Shown here in pieces: positions 32,136 to 58,884 of a DNA stretch of 64,000 nt. A model generated the notes under the pieces. It ran no database searches. It saw only the letters and a list, made by a program, of their open reading frames with translations, and was not told the origin of the DNA. Source of the DNA: an uncultured Acidobacteriota bacterium. GTDB taxonomy: Bacteria; Acidobacteriota; Blastocatellia; Pyrinomonadales; Pyrinomonadaceae. The translations under genes and the position numbers were made by a program. How positions within the stretch are numbered: position 1 is the stretch's first letter; each line of letters starts with the position of its first letter. The DNA lies in NCBI GenBank assembly GCA_937859595.1, contig CALMAH010000011.1:62001-126000 (forward strand). The letters are read 5' to 3'.

Positions 32136-32234
32136 TGGCGGAGGCGTGTGGGAGTCGAACCCACCCAGGACAACTCTCGCTGCCCCGCAAACGGTTTTGA
32201 AGACCGCGCCCATCACCGGACAGGATGCGCCTCC
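32136..32234 (-). tRNA. selC: tRNA-Sec (anticodon UCA)
   Basis: The 99-nt molecule has all the hallmarks of selenocysteine tRNA. The acceptor is GGAGGCG paired to CGCCTCC with discriminator G and an encoded CCA. A 6-bp D stem (CCTGTC/GATGGG) carries the small CGGT loop. The anticodon loop is CTTCAAA with anticodon TCA, the variable arm is long (about 7-bp stem), and the T arm is GTGGG-TTCGACT-CCCAC. The eighth acceptor position is a C-A mismatch. Its 5' 31 nt are repeated at 33111. Its presence means the organism can decode UGA as selenocysteine if selA, selB and selD exist elsewhere. Confidence 0.96.
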
Positions 32235-51751: not shown

Positions 51752-54700
51752 TCATCTTCGATCCTGCTTTCCGGGCGGGCCTAGTGTTAAAACCAGGTCC
51801 GCGATGTCCTCGGTTACGGTTATCACTTGCTCAATCGGTTCGAGGCCACTCTTACGCGCCGACGCACGAAGCAAGTATGACTCGCCTGCCGTGACGTTCG
51901 TGAACAAGAAATAGCCAAAGGCATTTGATCGTGCCCGTCGAATCTCGCCGTACACTGACGTCAGCGTCAGCTCAACATTGCGAACGGCATATCCCTCGTT
52001 TGTGATCGCACGGCCCGAAACCGAAACCAGTGCGGAGGTAGGTGCGATCTGAGCCAACGTCCACGGCGAAAATTCGGTAACTCCGGCTGTCGTCGCAGTC
52101 TTTGCCGTTGTGTCCAGCTCGGTTTTCAACATCGTCGCTGATCCGTGCGTGATGCGGTAAACACGATACGACTCTTCGTGAGCGGGTACCTCGCTTTCGT
52201 CGTAGTGAAATGTCATATCCGCTGAGATTATGCTGTCATTCGTCAGATCCCACCAACGCTGCAAACGATTGGCCGGAAGTCCGCTTGCGGGATCAGAATA
52301 GGCTCCTGTTTTAGGCTCGACGGTAAAGTTCCCGGTGCCTTCAATGTTAGAAAGCCGCACAGCCGAGGAAATGGAGTTGCTGCCGACCGGGAAATTGAAC
52401 GCGCCCGTGTTGTTCACGCAACGCGTCAGCGGAGCTTCGATGTACGCCGTGGCCGAGCCGCCGATGATCGCGTTTGCGTCGCAGCTTGTAACGACAACCG
52501 AACCCGGCCCCGTGATCTTGCCTTCGCTGAGGTTCAGGTTTCCATTGACCGTAAGGGTCCTACCCAACGCGACATTTAGCGTCCGGCCGTTCTCGATCCG
52601 CAGGTTCTGCAGAACGACATCAGCCAATGTAATATTCGCGTCGTTCGCCGAGATCGTCACGCTCGTGCCAACCGCCGGCACTGCATTCGTATCCCAATTC
52701 GCCGGATCATGCCAGTCGGCGGTCGCCCCCCCCTCCCATTGCTGTGAAACATATCGCCCGAAAAAGGCTGAAAGGCGGCACCCCCCCGATACGAAAAAGC
52801 CGCCGGCATAGACATCGCTCCCTGATGCTGCTACTGATCGGACGACGCCGTCCATCCCCGTCCCGAGGGCCGACCAGCCTGTTCCGTCCCATTTGGCGAT
52901 GCGGTTGGCCAAGGTACCGCCTGCTGTGGTAAAGTTGCCTCCGGCATACACATCGCTCCCCGATATTGCGATACCTTCGACAGTGCTGTCCATCCCCGTC
53001 CCGAGTGAAGACCAGCTTGTTCCGTTCCATTTGGCGATGCGGTTGGCCGGGGTGGTGAAACTGCCTCCGGCATAGACATCGCTCCCTGTTACACCGATCG
53101 CGAGGACTGCGGCGTTCGTCCCCGTCCCAAGGGACGACCAGCTTGCTCCGTTCCATTTGGCGATGCGGCTGCCCGGAGTGGTAAAGAATCCTCCGACATA
53201 GACATCGCTTCCTGACACAGCGATCGACCATACGGAGTCGTTCATCCCCGCCCCGAGTCCCGACCAGGTTGTCCCGTTCCATCTGGCAAAGTAGTTGGCC
53301 GGGCCGCCTCCGTTTATGGTGAAGCTTCCTCCGACATAGACGTTGCTCCCCGATACGGCGATGGCAAAGACTTGGTTGACCGTAACAGTGCCGAGTGCCG
53401 ACCAGCTGGTTCCGTTCCATTTAGCGATGCCGTTGGCCGTTGTGCCGCCTGCTGTGGTGAAGTTGCCTCCGGCATAGACGTCGCTCCCCGATACCGCGAT
53501 CGACCATACGGGGCCATTCAATCCTGTTCCAAGTGACGACCAGCTATTGCCATCCCATTTGGCGATGCGGTTTGCCGGCGAGCCGCCCGCTATGGTGAAT
53601 TGGCCTCCTGCATAGACATCGCTTCCCGATACTGCGACGGCCCAGACTTGGCCGTTCATACCCGAGCCGAGTGCCGACCAGCTTGTTCCGTTCCATTTGG
53701 CGATGCGGTTGGCCGGGGTGGTGAAGTTGCCTCCTGCATAGACATCGCTTCCCGATACTGTGACAACGATGACGCCGTTGTTTACTCCCGTCCCGAGTGC
53801 CGACCAGCTTGTCCCGTCCCATTTGGCGATGTAGTTGGCCGGGTCGCCGCCTGCTGTCGTGAAGTCGCCTCCGACATAGATGTCGTTCCCCGAAACAGCG
53901 ATCGACCAGACGAAGTCGTTCATTCCCGCCCCGAGTGGCGACCAGCTTGTCCCGTTCCATTTGGCAATGTAGTTGGCCGCGGCGTCCCCAGCTGTGGTGA
54001 AGAAGCCTCCCGCATAGACCTCGCTCCCAGATACTTTGATATCAATGACAGCGTTGTTCATTCCGGTGCCGAGTGATGACCAGCTAGTTCCGTCCCATTT
54101 GGCGATGTAGTTAGCCGGGGAGCCGCCCGCAGTGGTGAAGACCCCTCCGGCATATACCTCGGTTCCTGATACTGCGATCGAGACGACTAAGTTGTCCGTC
54201 CCTGTACCGAGTGCGGACCAGATTGTCCCGTCCCATTTGGCGATCCGGCTGGCCGGGGAGCCGCCTGCCGTCGTGAACTGGCCGCCAGCATAGACATCGC
54301 TTCCCGAAACGGTGACCGTCCAGACTGCGTCGTCCGTCCCCGACCCGAGTGGCAACCAGCTAGTTCCGTCCCATTTCGCTATGTTGTTGGCCGGGGAGCC
54401 GCCTGCTGTGGTAAAGCCCCCGCCAACATAGACGTCGGTCCCTGAGACGGCGATCGACCGGACGGGGCCGTCCAACCCCGTCCCGAGTGACGACCAATTT
54501 GTTCCGTCCCATTTGGAGATATAGTTGAGCGTACTTCCGATGACTTGAAAATCACCGCCGATAAACCAACCCCCGTTCCCATCTCCCGCAACGGCCCAAA
54601 CCGTCTCATTGGCCCCGGCATATGGGAATCGATCATCCCAGCCATCGCCGCAGGTTGCTTGCGGGGCGAGGTTATCGGATGCGGCTTCTGAGACAAACCG

Positions 54701-54925
54701 CGGTTCGCCGTTCGGGCCGTAAGTCATCTGAAATCCTTTCGGATCAAAGCTGCCGACGATGCCGTCGCGGAGAGTGCCGTCCGAATTCAAAACGGATGAG
54801 ATCGGCGAGGATGTAGTTTCGCCGCTCAACTGGGCAATGGCGGTTATTGCAGAAAATAGAATAAGAGTTGCAGTAAAAAAAGATACGGAGATATATCGGC
54901 GGCGCAGCGTCGAAACAAGATTCAT
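51752..54925 (-). CDS. Secreted 13-repeat beta-propeller-like protein with C-terminal Ig-like/CarboxypepD domain
   Basis: A 1057-residue exported protein. After the signal peptide (ending near ITAIAQ) come thirteen tandem units of about 35-45 residues with the pattern RIAKWDGTSWSALGTG, IAVSGSDVYAGGNFTTAGG, roughly residues 130-700. A GGATADWHDPANWDTNAVP segment and a short beta-helix-like block follow. The C-terminal domain resembles a carboxypeptidase regulatory-like module (VSVSGRAITNEGYAVRNVEL to GYFLFTNVTAGESY). The repeats resemble Kelch/RTX-like propeller blades; a surface-exposed binding role is likely. ATG 54925 has GGAAGG upstream; start at 55018 is rejected. Confidence 0.85.
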   Translation of the reverse strand: MNLVSTLRRRYISVSFFTATLILFSAITAIAQLSGETTSSPISSVLNSDGTLRDGIVGSFDPKGFQMTYGPNGEPRFVSEAASDNLAPQATCGDGWDDRFPYAGANETVWAVAGDGNGGWFIGGDFQVIGSTLNYISKWDGTNWSSLGTGLDGPVRSIAVSGTDVYVGGGFTTAGGSPANNIAKWDGTSWLPLGSGTDDAVWTVTVSGSDVYAGGQFTTAGGSPASRIAKWDGTIWSALGTGTDNLVVSIAVSGTEVYAGGVFTTAGGSPANYIAKWDGTSWSSLGTGMNNAVIDIKVSGSEVYAGGFFTTAGDAAANYIAKWNGTSWSPLGAGMNDFVWSIAVSGNDIYVGGDFTTAGGDPANYIAKWDGTSWSALGTGVNNGVIVVTVSGSDVYAGGNFTTPANRIAKWNGTSWSALGSGMNGQVWAVAVSGSDVYAGGQFTIAGGSPANRIAKWDGNSWSSLGTGLNGPVWSIAVSGSDVYAGGNFTTAGGTTANGIAKWNGTSWSALGTVTVNQVFAIAVSGSNVYVGGSFTINGGGPANYFARWNGTTWSGLGAGMNDSVWSIAVSGSDVYVGGFFTTPGSRIAKWNGASWSSLGTGTNAAVLAIGVTGSDVYAGGSFTTPANRIAKWNGTSWSSLGTGMDSTVEGIAISGSDVYAGGNFTTAGGTLANRIAKWDGTGWSALGTGMDGVVRSVAASGSDVYAGGFFVSGGCRLSAFFGRYVSQQWEGGATADWHDPANWDTNAVPAVGTSVTISANDANITLADVVLQNLRIENGRTLNVALGRTLTVNGNLNLSEGKITGPGSVVVTSCDANAIIGGSATAYIEAPLTRCVNNTGAFNFPVGSNSISSAVRLSNIEGTGNFTVEPKTGAYSDPASGLPANRLQRWWDLTNDSIISADMTFHYDESEVPAHEESYRVYRITHGSATMLKTELDTTAKTATTAGVTEFSPWTLAQIAPTSALVSVSGRAITNEGYAVRNVELTLTSVYGEIRRARSNAFGYFLFTNVTAGESYLLRASARKSGLEPIEQVITVTEDIADLVLTLGPPGKQDRR

Positions 54926-55309
54926 TTTTTGCCTTCCTTGATTGTAAGCGTAGGAGCGTCTTGGCTTGTGCCAGGGACGTGTAAATGCGAAGTTTGTATC
55001 ATAATGATACACACACAAACGACAAAAGTCAATGTTACTATTGGGAAAAGCCTGCCAGTGTAGCGGAAACCCGAGATGTGTAATGATTCTAGTAAAGAAT
55101 CGCGTGATCCCTTTAAGCTCCTAACGAGCGTTTACTCTCTGATTCGGGGTCGTCATTACGGGGGGACCGCGAAGAGATCTACGTTACCAGTGTACAATGG
55201 GCCAATTGACAATTTTCGAGGCGATGTTCGTCCGGGAAATTATCGTGCAGATGCTGGGGTTAGTGTTAGAATCAACTACAAGATTAGCTTGCCGGTGAAT
55301 AAATTTACG
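54926..55309. other. Intergenic region with one direct-repeat copy
   Basis: A divergent region between the propeller gene and the HEAT-cyclophilin gene. It holds ATAATGATACACACACAAACG near 54998-55020 and the direct-repeat copy at 55172-55216. No gene is supported, although an open frame extends upstream of the cyclophilin ATG. Confidence 0.5.
55172..55216. repeat. Imperfect direct repeat, right copy
   Basis: Partner of 51668-51726. The shared core is the 17-mer at 55194-55210, itself containing the palindrome CAATTG. Confidence 0.7.
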
Positions 55310-57499
55310 ATGAAGAATTTAACGATCTTAATGGTTCTGGGCTTTGTTCTGATCGCACCCCCGGTGAATGCTCAGGTACCGCTTGCGACCCAGATAGACA
55401 TCCTGAAGGCCGAAGACGAACTCAGGTTCGACAAGACCCTCGAAAGCCTCCTAAAAAGCCCAAATGAGCAGATACGTATCAGGGCCGCATTGGCGGCGGG
55501 GCGGATCGGCGATGAGCGAGCGGTCGCTGCACTGATCGAATTGCTTGAAAAGGACAGTTCGTTTGATGTGCGGACGATGGCCGCTTTTGCCCTCGGCGAG
55601 ATCGAATCGATCGAGGCGGCAGAGGCAATAATATCGGCGGCTTCAGATATGAAAGCACGGCCGGAGATCCGTGCACGGGCCGTAGAGGCGGCGGGAAAGA
55701 TCGCCGCGGCCAACGCCACGGATGACCGTTCTAAAAAGCTAGGGGCTGCGATAGTAGAGATACTTATTCATGAACATGCCAAACGTTCGGGGCCGTATCC
55801 GGAATTGGTACGGCAGGGGATAACGGCGGCTCTCCGGGCAAGGCCGGAGGGCGGCGCTGACGCGGTGAAGCCATTCCTCGGTTATTCAGATGCGGAAATC
55901 GCAGCTGACGCGCTCAATACGCTTGCCCGGCTTAGGGCAAAAAATGCGAACGATGAAGCGCGTAAGCTCCTGGCCGAGCACAAAGACCCAATTGTTCGTG
56001 CTAATGCCGCCCGCGTTTTGGGGGCTGCCGAGGACGCGGAAGCCCTGCCTTTGCTTATAGAGGCAGCTACGCGGGACCGGGACAGCCGGGTCCGTGTTTC
56101 GGCGATCAGGTCGCTCGCACAGCTAAAGGACCCGCGGGCGGCGGATAGGCTGATAAAACACGGAAGCGAGCTTCTCCAAGTTTATGAAAAGGCAAAGAAA
56201 CCTGACTTCATTCCCGTCGAGCACAGTGAATTTATCGAGGTCGCAGTGGCGCTCGGGCAGATCATACCTAATTCGTTCAACGATGATGCGGTCAAGCTGT
56301 TTCGAGCGTTTGGGAAACTCGATCGCGGCCACACTCCTGAAGTTTATATTGCAAGAGTTCGGATAGCACCGGCCCCCGGAGAGGGTGAGGAGCCCGAACT
56401 CAACCATTGGAAGCAATACCGCACACTGGCACAGATCGTCGGTGAATTTGCCGTTCTCGAACCGACAGACGAAAAAGGGAAAGAGATGAAGGTAGAGGCC
56501 CCCGGCGTGCTTCGCCCGCTGGCGTTGGCGTTTGCCGAGGCCGACCCAAAGGACGAGGCCGCGACTATTCTGGCCGGGCCGGATACGCTCCGTGCATATG
56601 CCCGGTTCAAGACCGACGACCTTGATGATCTGCTGCGGACTGCTTTGAAAAACAAGGATGTCCAAATGCGAACGGCGGCTGCGAGCCTGCTCGGCGACCG
56701 CTCGGCCACGAAGGAGAATATTGAAAGCCTAAAGGCCGCCGCTGAATATGCCATTTTCAACGATCTTGATAAGAACGATGCCGTTCTTGCGGCTATCAAT
56801 GCCATTTTCAAACTCGATAAGAAGGCCTCGCTGCCGGTGATAGAACTTGCAGCGGGTTCCACGGATCTCGTCGTCCGGCGTCGGGTTTATGAGATGCTCC
56901 GGGACCCAGAGATAAAGGAATTTCATTCCTCTCCGATACTAAAACCCCTCAGCCGCGATCATTTTCTGCAGGTTAGGCCTCATTCTGGAAAAGGCGGCCG
57001 TTTGGGCCAGGTCCTTAACACCGAAGCGGATTACCGCCGTGCTGCCAGCCGCCGAAATGGCAGCGTCAGGGCCGTGCTTACCACGCAAAAAGGCACCTTC
57101 ACCATCGACCTGCTGCCGGAAGATGCTCCGCTGACGGTAGATAATTTTATCAAGCTGGCAAACGCGAAATATTTCGATGGGCTTGAGGTCCACCGCGTCG
57201 TGCCCAATTTCGTTATGCAGGACGGCGACCCTCGCGGCGATGGCACAGGCGGCCCCGGATGGTCGATCCGCTGCGAGATAAATATGCTGCCTTATGAGCG
57301 CGGCGTTGTCGGCATGGCGCTCGCCGGCAAGGACACCGGCGGCTCGCAATGGTTCGTCACCCACTCGCCCCAACCACACCTCGACGGCGGCTACACCGTC
57401 TTCGGCCGCGTGAACGAAACCGACATGAAAGTCGTAGATAGTATCGTCCGGGGAGATAAGATCCTGACGGTGAAGATAACAGAAGCACGTGCACGCTAG
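55310..57499 (+). CDS. Secreted HEAT-repeat protein fused to a cyclophilin domain
   Basis: A 729-residue exported protein. A signal peptide (LTILMVLGFVLIAPPVNAQ) precedes about ten HEAT/PBS-lyase-like repeats (IRIRAALAAGRIGDERAVAAL, DPIVRANAARVLGAAEDAEAL). A bacterial cyclophilin PPIase domain occupies residues 580-729 (VLTTQKGTFTIDLLPEDAPL, FDGLEVHRVVPNFVMQDGDP, GSQWFVTHSPQPHLDG). The catalytic Arg in HRVVPNF is present. The HEAT scaffold probably recruits client proteins for isomerisation in the periplasm. ATG 55310 is used; the longer frame starts in the intergenic repeat. The next gene starts 7 bp later. Confidence 0.9.
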   Translation: MKNLTILMVLGFVLIAPPVNAQVPLATQIDILKAEDELRFDKTLESLLKSPNEQIRIRAALAAGRIGDERAVAALIELLEKDSSFDVRTMAAFALGEIESIEAAEAIISAASDMKARPEIRARAVEAAGKIAAANATDDRSKKLGAAIVEILIHEHAKRSGPYPELVRQGITAALRARPEGGADAVKPFLGYSDAEIAADALNTLARLRAKNANDEARKLLAEHKDPIVRANAARVLGAAEDAEALPLLIEAATRDRDSRVRVSAIRSLAQLKDPRAADRLIKHGSELLQVYEKAKKPDFIPVEHSEFIEVAVALGQIIPNSFNDDAVKLFRAFGKLDRGHTPEVYIARVRIAPAPGEGEEPELNHWKQYRTLAQIVGEFAVLEPTDEKGKEMKVEAPGVLRPLALAFAEADPKDEAATILAGPDTLRAYARFKTDDLDDLLRTALKNKDVQMRTAAASLLGDRSATKENIESLKAAAEYAIFNDLDKNDAVLAAINAIFKLDKKASLPVIELAAGSTDLVVRRRVYEMLRDPEIKEFHSSPILKPLSRDHFLQVRPHSGKGGRLGQVLNTEADYRRAASRRNGSVRAVLTTQKGTFTIDLLPEDAPLTVDNFIKLANAKYFDGLEVHRVVPNFVMQDGDPRGDGTGGPGWSIRCEINMLPYERGVVGMALAGKDTGGSQWFVTHSPQPHLDGGYTVFGRVNETDMKVVDSIVRGDKILTVKITEARAR

Positions 57500-57505
57500 T
57501 TGAAG

Positions 57506-57883
57506 ATGGCGGAAAATTTATCATCGTTGCAACCGAATGAGTTTGCTGGCCTGGCAAGAGAGGTTGATCAGCACGAGGGTTTGAACCAGGTACTGGCGTG
57601 GGCCGGAAGGCATGCCCCGGGCAGCTTTTTACCGCAGATCGTCGCGGAGGTAATTACTCAGGACGAGTTCACACACGACGTTATCGTTCCATATAAGGAC
57701 GTGTTCCTGGTTTACGACACCACCTGACTAGGAGCAGTGACGGCGGTCGCCGTCTGGGACAAGCATCCGACGGCGGATGAGCTATTGGAATACCGAATAA
57801 GTACCGGATGGAAACCGACGCCATCCTCATTGAAGAAGGGTGATGAAATTATGGGGCATGCGGCATGTGCGCTACTAGATTGA
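57506..57883 (+). CDS. Candidate selenoprotein (in-frame UGA at codon 74)
   Basis: One reading frame runs from ATG 57506 to TGA 57881-57883, interrupted only by TGA at 57725-57727. The sequence on each side looks like one protein: EVITQDEFTHDVIVPYKDVFLVYDTT before the UGA and LGAVTAVAVWDKHPTADELL, STGWKPTPSSLKKGDEIMGHAAC after it. The downstream part has no start codon of its own in a sensible place. Immediately 3' of the UGA is a hairpin with a GGUC loop (57735-57756), as in bacterial SECIS elements, and tRNA-Sec is encoded in this window. If UGA is read as selenocysteine the product is 125 residues with Sec74; if not, it is a 73-residue truncated protein. A further Cys lies four residues from the end. 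The family and reaction are unknown. It sits 7 bp downstream of the cyclophilin gene. Confidence 0.7.
57735..57756 (+). other. SECIS-like hairpin downstream of the in-frame UGA
   Basis: GACGGC-GGTC-GCCGTC (57739-57754) is a perfect 6-bp stem with a GGUC loop whose first G is 18 nt after the UGA. Below it, CA (57735-57736) can pair with TG (57755-57756), leaving GU bulged on the 5' side. Bacterial SECIS elements have a small loop with G at the first or second position, a short stem and a bulged U, about 16-37 nt after UGA; the E. coli fdhF loop is also GGUC at about 19 nt. Confidence 0.6.
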
Positions 57884-58362: not shown

Positions 58363-58884
58363 ATGGACGTTTCAAACCCACGCACACGCCAAGATCTCCC
58401 GGTCGAACGCCGCCGCGAGATCGAGATCGAGCAGGGGCTTGATAATCTGGCGCATTACCTGGATGGGTTGTTTCGTGTACCCGGGACTACTTGGCGTTTT
58501 GGGCTGGACGGGCTGATCGGGTTGGTGCCCAACGTGGGCGACACGATAACTTCGTTCGCTTCGTTTTACATATTGCTGGCCGGCGTGCGGTATGGGGTAC
58601 CGAAGATAACGCTACTGCGGATGGCGTTCAACATCGGCATTGATTATGTGGTCGGGGCGATTCCGTTCCTCGGCGATGCCTTCGATTTCATCTGGAAATC
58701 GAACAAAAAGAATATGGCCCTCATTCGAGAAAGGGCCACCGGCACTGACAAAGGGACCAAGACCGATTATCTTTTCGTCTTTGCCATCATCGGCCTACTC
58801 GTCCTCCTCCTCCTCGGCTCCATCTTCGTCAGCCTCTACATCATCGGCTCGATATTTTGGGAGATATTTACCGGGAATATTTGA
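58363..58884 (+). CDS. DUF4112 membrane protein
   Basis: A 173-residue inner-membrane protein of the DUF4112 family: FRVPGTTWRFGLDGLIGLVPNVGDTITS, then RMAFNIGIDYVVGAIPFLGDAFDFIWKSNKKN, and a C-terminal hydrophobic pair (FVFAIIGLLVLLLLGSIFV). The two GxxPxxGD motifs define the family. Its function is unknown; members are common in Gram-negative bacteria and archaea. Confidence 0.9.
   Translation: MDVSNPRTRQDLPVERRREIEIEQGLDNLAHYLDGLFRVPGTTWRFGLDGLIGLVPNVGDTITSFASFYILLAGVRYGVPKITLLRMAFNIGIDYVVGAIPFLGDAFDFIWKSNKKNMALIRERATGTDKGTKTDYLFVFAIIGLLVLLLLGSIFVSLYIIGSIFWEIFTGNI

Follow-up and report, generated by a model that had tools for sequence, protein, structure and literature searches.

Bacterial selenoproteins are characterized by an in-frame UGA that is interchangeable with Cys and is decoded by SelB with a SECIS hairpin, and by the presence of SelA, SelB, SelD, and tRNA-Sec in the genome. 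In the published model of the bacterial SECIS (bSECIS), the apical loop has the form N1-G-[G/U]-N-N2, in which N1 and N2 are paired, and lies 16–37 nt from the UGA; the criteria are a 3–9 nt apical loop with an early G, a stem of 4–16 bp, and an MFE of at most −7.5 kcal/mol (PMC13188914). The SECIS of Escherichia coli fdhF has a GGUC loop. A review of May 2026 listed 119 prokaryotic selenoprotein families with their motifs and model accessions (PMC13188914 Table 1). The closest counterparts among uncharacterised predicted selenoproteins are the deep-Sep hypothetical proteins DG, DW, and DF and the families of Haft et al., the models of which come from NCBIfam, for example NF049953 and NF049942 (PMC13188914 Table 1). 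The deep-Sep paper states that a selenoprotein lacking Cys homologues may be lost in filtering, and that the known families all seem to have such homologues (PMC12013277).

The locus described here shared the interchangeable UGA, a hairpin with an apical GU about 18 nt after the UGA, and the complete machinery with known bacterial selenoproteins, whereas the sequence of its family, the T-U-x-G motif, and the predicted fold matched no described family, and Cys forms were almost absent. The locus was located in a 64,000-nucleotide stretch of DNA from an uncultured member of the Pyrinomonadaceae (Acidobacteriota), hereafter the window, and the source genome was composed of 3.8 Mb in 44 contigs with 98% completeness. 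The forward frame 57506–57883 was interrupted by a single in-frame TGA and consisted of 73 residues, this TGA, 51 residues, and a closing TGA at 57881–57883. An earlier note on the window had described protein-like sequence on both sides of TGA 57725–57727, and this held on translation, the product being MAENLSSLQPNEFAGLAREVDQHEGLNQVLAWAGRHAPGSFLPQIVAEVITQDEFTHDVIVPYKDVFLVYDTT-U-LGAVTAVAVWDKHPTADELLEYRISTGWKPTPSSLKKGDEIMGHAACALLD followed by the closing TGA. On comparative sequence evidence, and without experimental data on selenocysteine (Sec) incorporation, the frame very likely encodes a selenoprotein. The end of the upstream gene was 6 nt before the ATG. The features are listed in Table 1.

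Table 1. Coordinates of the features of the selenoprotein locus within the window.
Feature	Position	Strand	Basis
Selenoprotein gene (very likely), 125 residues, Sec as residue 74	57506..57883	+	Translation, homologues
Start codon ATG	57506	+	Agrees with homologue L003 (MATNLSSL...)
Possible alternative start TTG, same frame	57500	+	
UGA codon for selenocysteine	57725..57727	+	TGA in 107/109 aligned loci, Cys codon in the remaining two
Bacterial SECIS hairpin, 57739-57745 paired with 57748-57754, apical GU 57746-57747	57739..57754	+	Covariation, codon-shuffle control, published bSECIS model
Cys121 codon, C-terminal G-H-A-A-C motif, candidate redox partner of Sec74	57866..57868	+	
Upstream gene, HEAT repeats and cyclophilin-type peptidyl-prolyl isomerase	55076..57499	+	
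Downstream gene, DUF4112 membrane protein	58363..58884	+	
tRNA-Sec gene, anticodon UCA	32136..32234	-	ARAGORN; Rfam RF01852 (69.8 bits, gathering score 47)

Homologues with 40–70% identity were found in Acidobacteriota, Myxococcota (including Myxococcus xanthus, of which strain AM003 carries the copy L048), Gemmatimonadota, Planctomycetota, and Chloroflexota, and the closest named ones belonged to Pyrinomonadaceae and other Acidobacteriota. A scan of 84,980 species genomes yielded 110 relatives over five phyla, 80 of which were kept. The 109 aligned loci included some duplicates of the same locus, so that 90 sequences differed from one another after the site. At the Sec74 column, 107 loci had TGA, one had TGT, and one had TGC, and neither TAA, TAG, nor a non-Cys amino acid occurred in any of the 109. 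The true terminal stops of the family genes were mixed (55 TGA, 17 TAG, and 16 TAA), whereas the internal site was never TAA or TAG. Protein conservation was continuous across the UGA on both sides, and in the part after the UGA, dN was much lower than dS wherever the latter could be estimated. Thr directly preceded Sec in 87 of 88 distinct sequences, Gly was located at +2 after Sec in all distinct sequences, and the flanks T-U-x-G and TAVAVW were kept across phyla. Residues D53, E54, G76, P88, L94, W102, and P104, together with position 74 when Sec and Cys were counted as one, were invariant over 76 sequences. The criterion for a selenoprotein that homologues keep the in-frame UGA and replace it by nothing but Cys was satisfied. 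These comparisons show that UGA 57725–57727 is under selection as a sense codon that is interchangeable only with Cys.

Within related genomes, matches were present in 17 of 98; 16 were full length or nearly so, each with one TGA and no other stop, and the seventeenth was a 26-residue fragment. In searches restricted to single phyla, the gene was found in 14 of 396 genomes of Acidobacteriota, 56 of 195 of Myxococcota, and 9 of 395 of Gemmatimonadota, with one TGA in all 56 and all nine copies of the latter two phyla, and the TGA form was found in 3 of 392 genomes of Planctomycetota. In the genus of the window, only 3 of 41 genomes contained a full-length copy. This patchy distribution indicates that the gene is often lost. 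Plasmid records contained no match to the family, and viral contigs contained no relative of it. The 26-residue fragment (L018), from a genome of the same genus (G029), matched the N terminus of the protein with 81% identity in a 34-codon open frame and is possibly the remnant of a lost gene. In one planctomycete (G760; L159 and L162), the gene was frameshifted exactly at the UGA site, with its halves in different frames and the Sec codon disrupted, which reflects decay of this copy or a fault in the assembly. A typical Myxococcaceae copy was also held by the record of Comamonas sp. KCTC 72670 (L053), and that assembly is therefore probably mislabelled or contaminated by a myxobacterium.

Cys forms were rare. 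The close Cys homologue, L104, was placed inside the Sec clade in a tree of limited resolution. The genome G121, which carries the Cys form, retained SelA, so losing the Sec machinery did not force the change to Cys there. Remote Cys homologues were detected in two planctomycetes (L160 in G818 and L161 in G846) with profile E values of about 1e-8; their Cys was aligned to Sec74 within a T-C-x-G motif, Cys121 was absent, D53 and E54 were replaced, and no Pfam or NCBIfam model matched them. A remote acidobacterial match with Cys (L111, genome-wide E about 1e-3) was not relied on. With a single close Cys form found alongside more than 100 Sec forms, the family comes close to an exception to the apparent rule that selenoprotein families have Cys homologues, and selenocysteine may be nearly obligatory in it.

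The earlier note had described a perfect 6-bp stem with a GGUC loop after the UGA. This form was present (57739–57744 paired with 57749–57754, loop 57745–57748), but when homologues were compared, the outer bases of the loop also paired, and a stem of 7 bp with a GU di-loop described the hairpin better. The folding energy was no better than that of shuffled sequence (z about 0 and −0.2), so the hairpin of a single sequence is no evidence, and conservation and covariation are. When the T of the TGA was numbered 1, positions 15–21 paired with 24–30 around G22 and U23 in the class I hairpin. All seven pairs could form in 51 of 63 class I members. In 2000 shuffles, with codons swapped only among sequences that share the amino acid at the column concerned so that every protein was kept, this number averaged 25.8 and never exceeded 34. 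Cells changed on both sides of a pair numbered 37, against 12.1 after shuffling, and the compensatory changes fell at synonymous sites. Pair 15/30, formed by two third codon positions, was mostly G-C or C-G and switched between them, pair 21/24 was always G-C or A-U within class I, and pair 17/28 survived the changes of Thr to Arg and Val to Leu in L010 and L011. The hairpin was lost in the close Cys homologue L104, which retained three of the seven class I pairs and four of the six class II pairs. In L097, several residues were changed (AVNGSSRWSH), yet a third, shifted hairpin could form. The hairpin therefore tracks the UGA and not the peptide. The comparative evidence shows that hairpin 57739–57754 is under selection as RNA.

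The class II hairpin, formed by positions 21–26 and 32–37 around CGUGU, occurred in Myxococcaceae and in L088, L089, and L096, and it replaces the class I hairpin in Myxococcaceae. Pair 22/36 was A-U in L096 and G-C in the others; class II is less certain than class I, since its pairs are mostly invariant among close relatives. When compared with the SECIS of E. coli fdhF, the class I hairpin was similar in the G-C pair closing a GU di-loop and in the distance from the UGA. The fdhF element, as generally known, has five pairs above the bulged U17, whereas that of the new family has seven pairs below the loop and an invariant U before the stem, and the Myxococcaceae and a few other members differ further in using a different hairpin further downstream. 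The membership test of a downstream SECIS against the published model (PMC13188914) was met, with an energy inside the limit and not exceptional against shuffles. The selD SECIS of the same genome was tried as an internal control and set aside, as no common motif was recognisable.

The remaining machinery was encoded elsewhere in the source genome, with SelA at E 5.9e-133, SelD at E 7.2e-104, and SelB at 375 bits, above the cut-off, and the membership test of a host with SelA, SelB, SelD, and tRNA-Sec was met. In Myxococcota, SelA was present in 55 of 56 genomes with the gene and in 96 of 139 genomes lacking the gene (Fisher p = 1e-6, with no correction for relatedness). In the class of the window, SelA was present in all 17 gene-positive genomes, but also in most negative ones; co-occurrence inside the class is uninformative because about 90% of its genomes carry SelA. 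SelA was also detected in 18 of 19 further hosts, mostly outside Acidobacteriota, and was undetected in two gene-bearing metagenome bins (G461 and G490). The SelD gene of the source genome (L152, G000 contig C15:111161-112081) had its own in-frame TGA near the N terminus, from which SelD there is itself concluded to be a selenoprotein.

The read-through product with Cys in place of Sec was predicted by AlphaFold2 with a mean pLDDT of 95 and a pTM of 0.88. The predicted fold was composed, in order, of a β strand, two helices, four strands, a helix, a β hairpin, and a short helix. In the model, Sec74 was located at a tight turn between strands 66–73 and 77–84, and Cys121 within the last, short C-terminal helix. 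Cys121 was conserved in at least 90% of alignment A2 and in 83 of 88 distinct UGA homologues; it was missing in the other five and in both remote Cys homologues and is therefore not essential in all members. No CxxU or UxxC motif was found in the homologue sequences; no Cys occurred within six residues after Sec, and one occurred within six residues before it in 4 of 107. No signal peptide or transmembrane segment was seen in the sequence. Foldseek against the PDB and viral models gave no significant fold match (best E 0.48 and 0.041), and the leading matches, with TM-scores of about 0.2–0.35, were rejected as chance. The membership test of a thioredoxin-like fold with CxxU or UxxC was not met, as judged from the motif, the order of secondary structure, and Foldseek against the PDB.

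The HEAT/cyclophilin gene upstream and the DUF4112 gene downstream were kept only in Pyrinomonadaceae-like relatives. Outside these genomes no conserved neighbourhood was found, and the gene was located among unrelated genes; the selenoprotein therefore probably works alone. A conserved operon was accordingly dropped as a clue to function, and in the absence of both a wider neighbourhood and a fold match, any functional assignment is guesswork. The best guess, held with slightly less than even confidence, is a small oxidoreductase of the cytosol that uses the selenol of Sec74 as the nucleophile and probably Cys121 as the partner. Since the remote Cys homologues have no Cys121, the reaction could also need only one residue of the protein together with an external thiol.

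No match to the protein or the family was found in Pfam, none to PDB sequences, and nothing for the family in PHROGs or PADLOC. None of the 76 members matched any NCBIfam model (June 2026) beyond chance, which distinguishes the family from DG, DW, and DF and from those of Haft et al.; the families of Haft and Tolstoy 2025 were covered through the NCBIfam models. None of the 119 families inventoried in PMC13188914 Table 1 fitted, and the membership test of a curated model match or a published inventory entry was not met. The family is thus likely to be undescribed, with NCBI nr, bioRxiv, and Deng et al. 2026 (Cell Rep 45:116760) lying outside the comparison. It is probably missing from the surveys examined because published methods seek Cys homologues (deep-Sep, PMC12013277; related strategies, PMC13188914).

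Taken as a whole, the data are very probably best explained by a selenoprotein of an undescribed family, with UGA decoded through a SECIS and an inferred oxidoreductase function. By the established mechanism, SelB carrying GTP and Sec-tRNA(Sec) would bind hairpin 57739–57754 at the ribosome and deliver Sec to UGA 57725–57727, using the genome-encoded SelA, SelD, and tRNA-Sec. The product would be a small soluble cytosolic protein with a confidently predicted α+β fold, in which Sec74 may be the reactive selenol of a peroxidase-like or thiol/disulfide-exchange oxidoreductase and Cys121 its putative resolving partner in most members. The claims made earlier from the sequence alone largely held: tRNA-Sec was confirmed in the window by ARAGORN and Rfam, selenocysteine at the UGA was supported by the TGA/Cys column, the covarying hairpin, and the machinery, and a 125-residue product of no recognised family was supported by the database searches. 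Three computational checks had been proposed with them. Homologues were in favour, as TGA and its flanks were kept across phyla and only Cys replaced it; SelA, SelB, and SelD were all present; and folding of the hairpin was unremarkable in energy alone, while covariation and the loss in the close Cys homologue favoured it.

Among rival explanations, the one that survives best accepts the selenoprotein but has Sec74 bind an electrophile or a metal(loid), or gives the protein a role in selenium trafficking or sensing, instead of thiol or peroxide redox chemistry. It is supported by the absence of CxxU/UxxC, of a thioredoxin-like fold, of a fold match, and of recurrent redox neighbours, by the loss of Cys121 in some members, and by the conserved polar residues D53, E54, H57, and D58, which could make a binding site. 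Against it, the high conservation of Cys121 fits a selenenylsulfide partner, and a redox role is presumed for most of the selenoproteins known (PMC13188914); the balance leans slightly away from it. Programmed readthrough with another amino acid, or termination giving short and extended forms, without selenocysteine, is very unlikely. A nearby 3' hairpin could also promote readthrough, and the short product would finish with a complete β strand; however, the column was replaced by Cys codons only, never by Trp, Arg, Gly, TAA, or TAG, SelA was present in all hosts tested except the two metagenome bins, the hairpin geometry fits the bSECIS model, and the Cys form has no hairpin. A nonsense mutation in a decaying gene, with UGA an ordinary stop and the downstream part a relic, was the main alternative raised earlier and is all but excluded: the few full-length copies in the genus of the window and the fragment in G029 are consistent with it, whereas the same TGA in nearly all loci over five phyla, the protein conserved on both sides, the replacement by Cys alone, and a hairpin kept beyond protein coding needs are not. 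Wholesale reassignment of UGA was dismissed because the gene itself closes with TGA.

The selenoprotein reading adds a family that more than 100 sequenced species in five phyla possess, among them the model organism M. xanthus, and that is absent from the surveys examined. Its hosts include soil and predatory bacteria, in which a seemingly broken gene is very probably a short selenoprotein gene, and annotations presumably list the products as truncated hypothetical proteins. The family opens a new and possibly selenium-obligate chemistry to testing in a genetically tractable aerobe, and its two SECIS types provide naturally occurring variants from which recognition by SelB can be studied. A bolder reading, in which these selenoenzymes combine a fold and an active site unseen in solved proteins with near-obligatory Sec and at least two SECIS types replacing one another in evolution, is favoured by a modest margin.

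Two observations were made on surrounding genes. A Fur/PerR-like regulator, assigned by eye from its sequence, was located on the opposite strand near the gene in three acidobacterial loci, L022 (+3764 from the UGA), L049 (+770), and L071 (+736). In the window, the reverse strand at 51752–55018 contained a 1088-residue open frame with many repeats of the type 'IAKWDGTSWSxLGTG...VxxIAVSGSDVYAGGxFTTAGG', which from its sequence is apparently a secreted β-propeller-like repeat protein.
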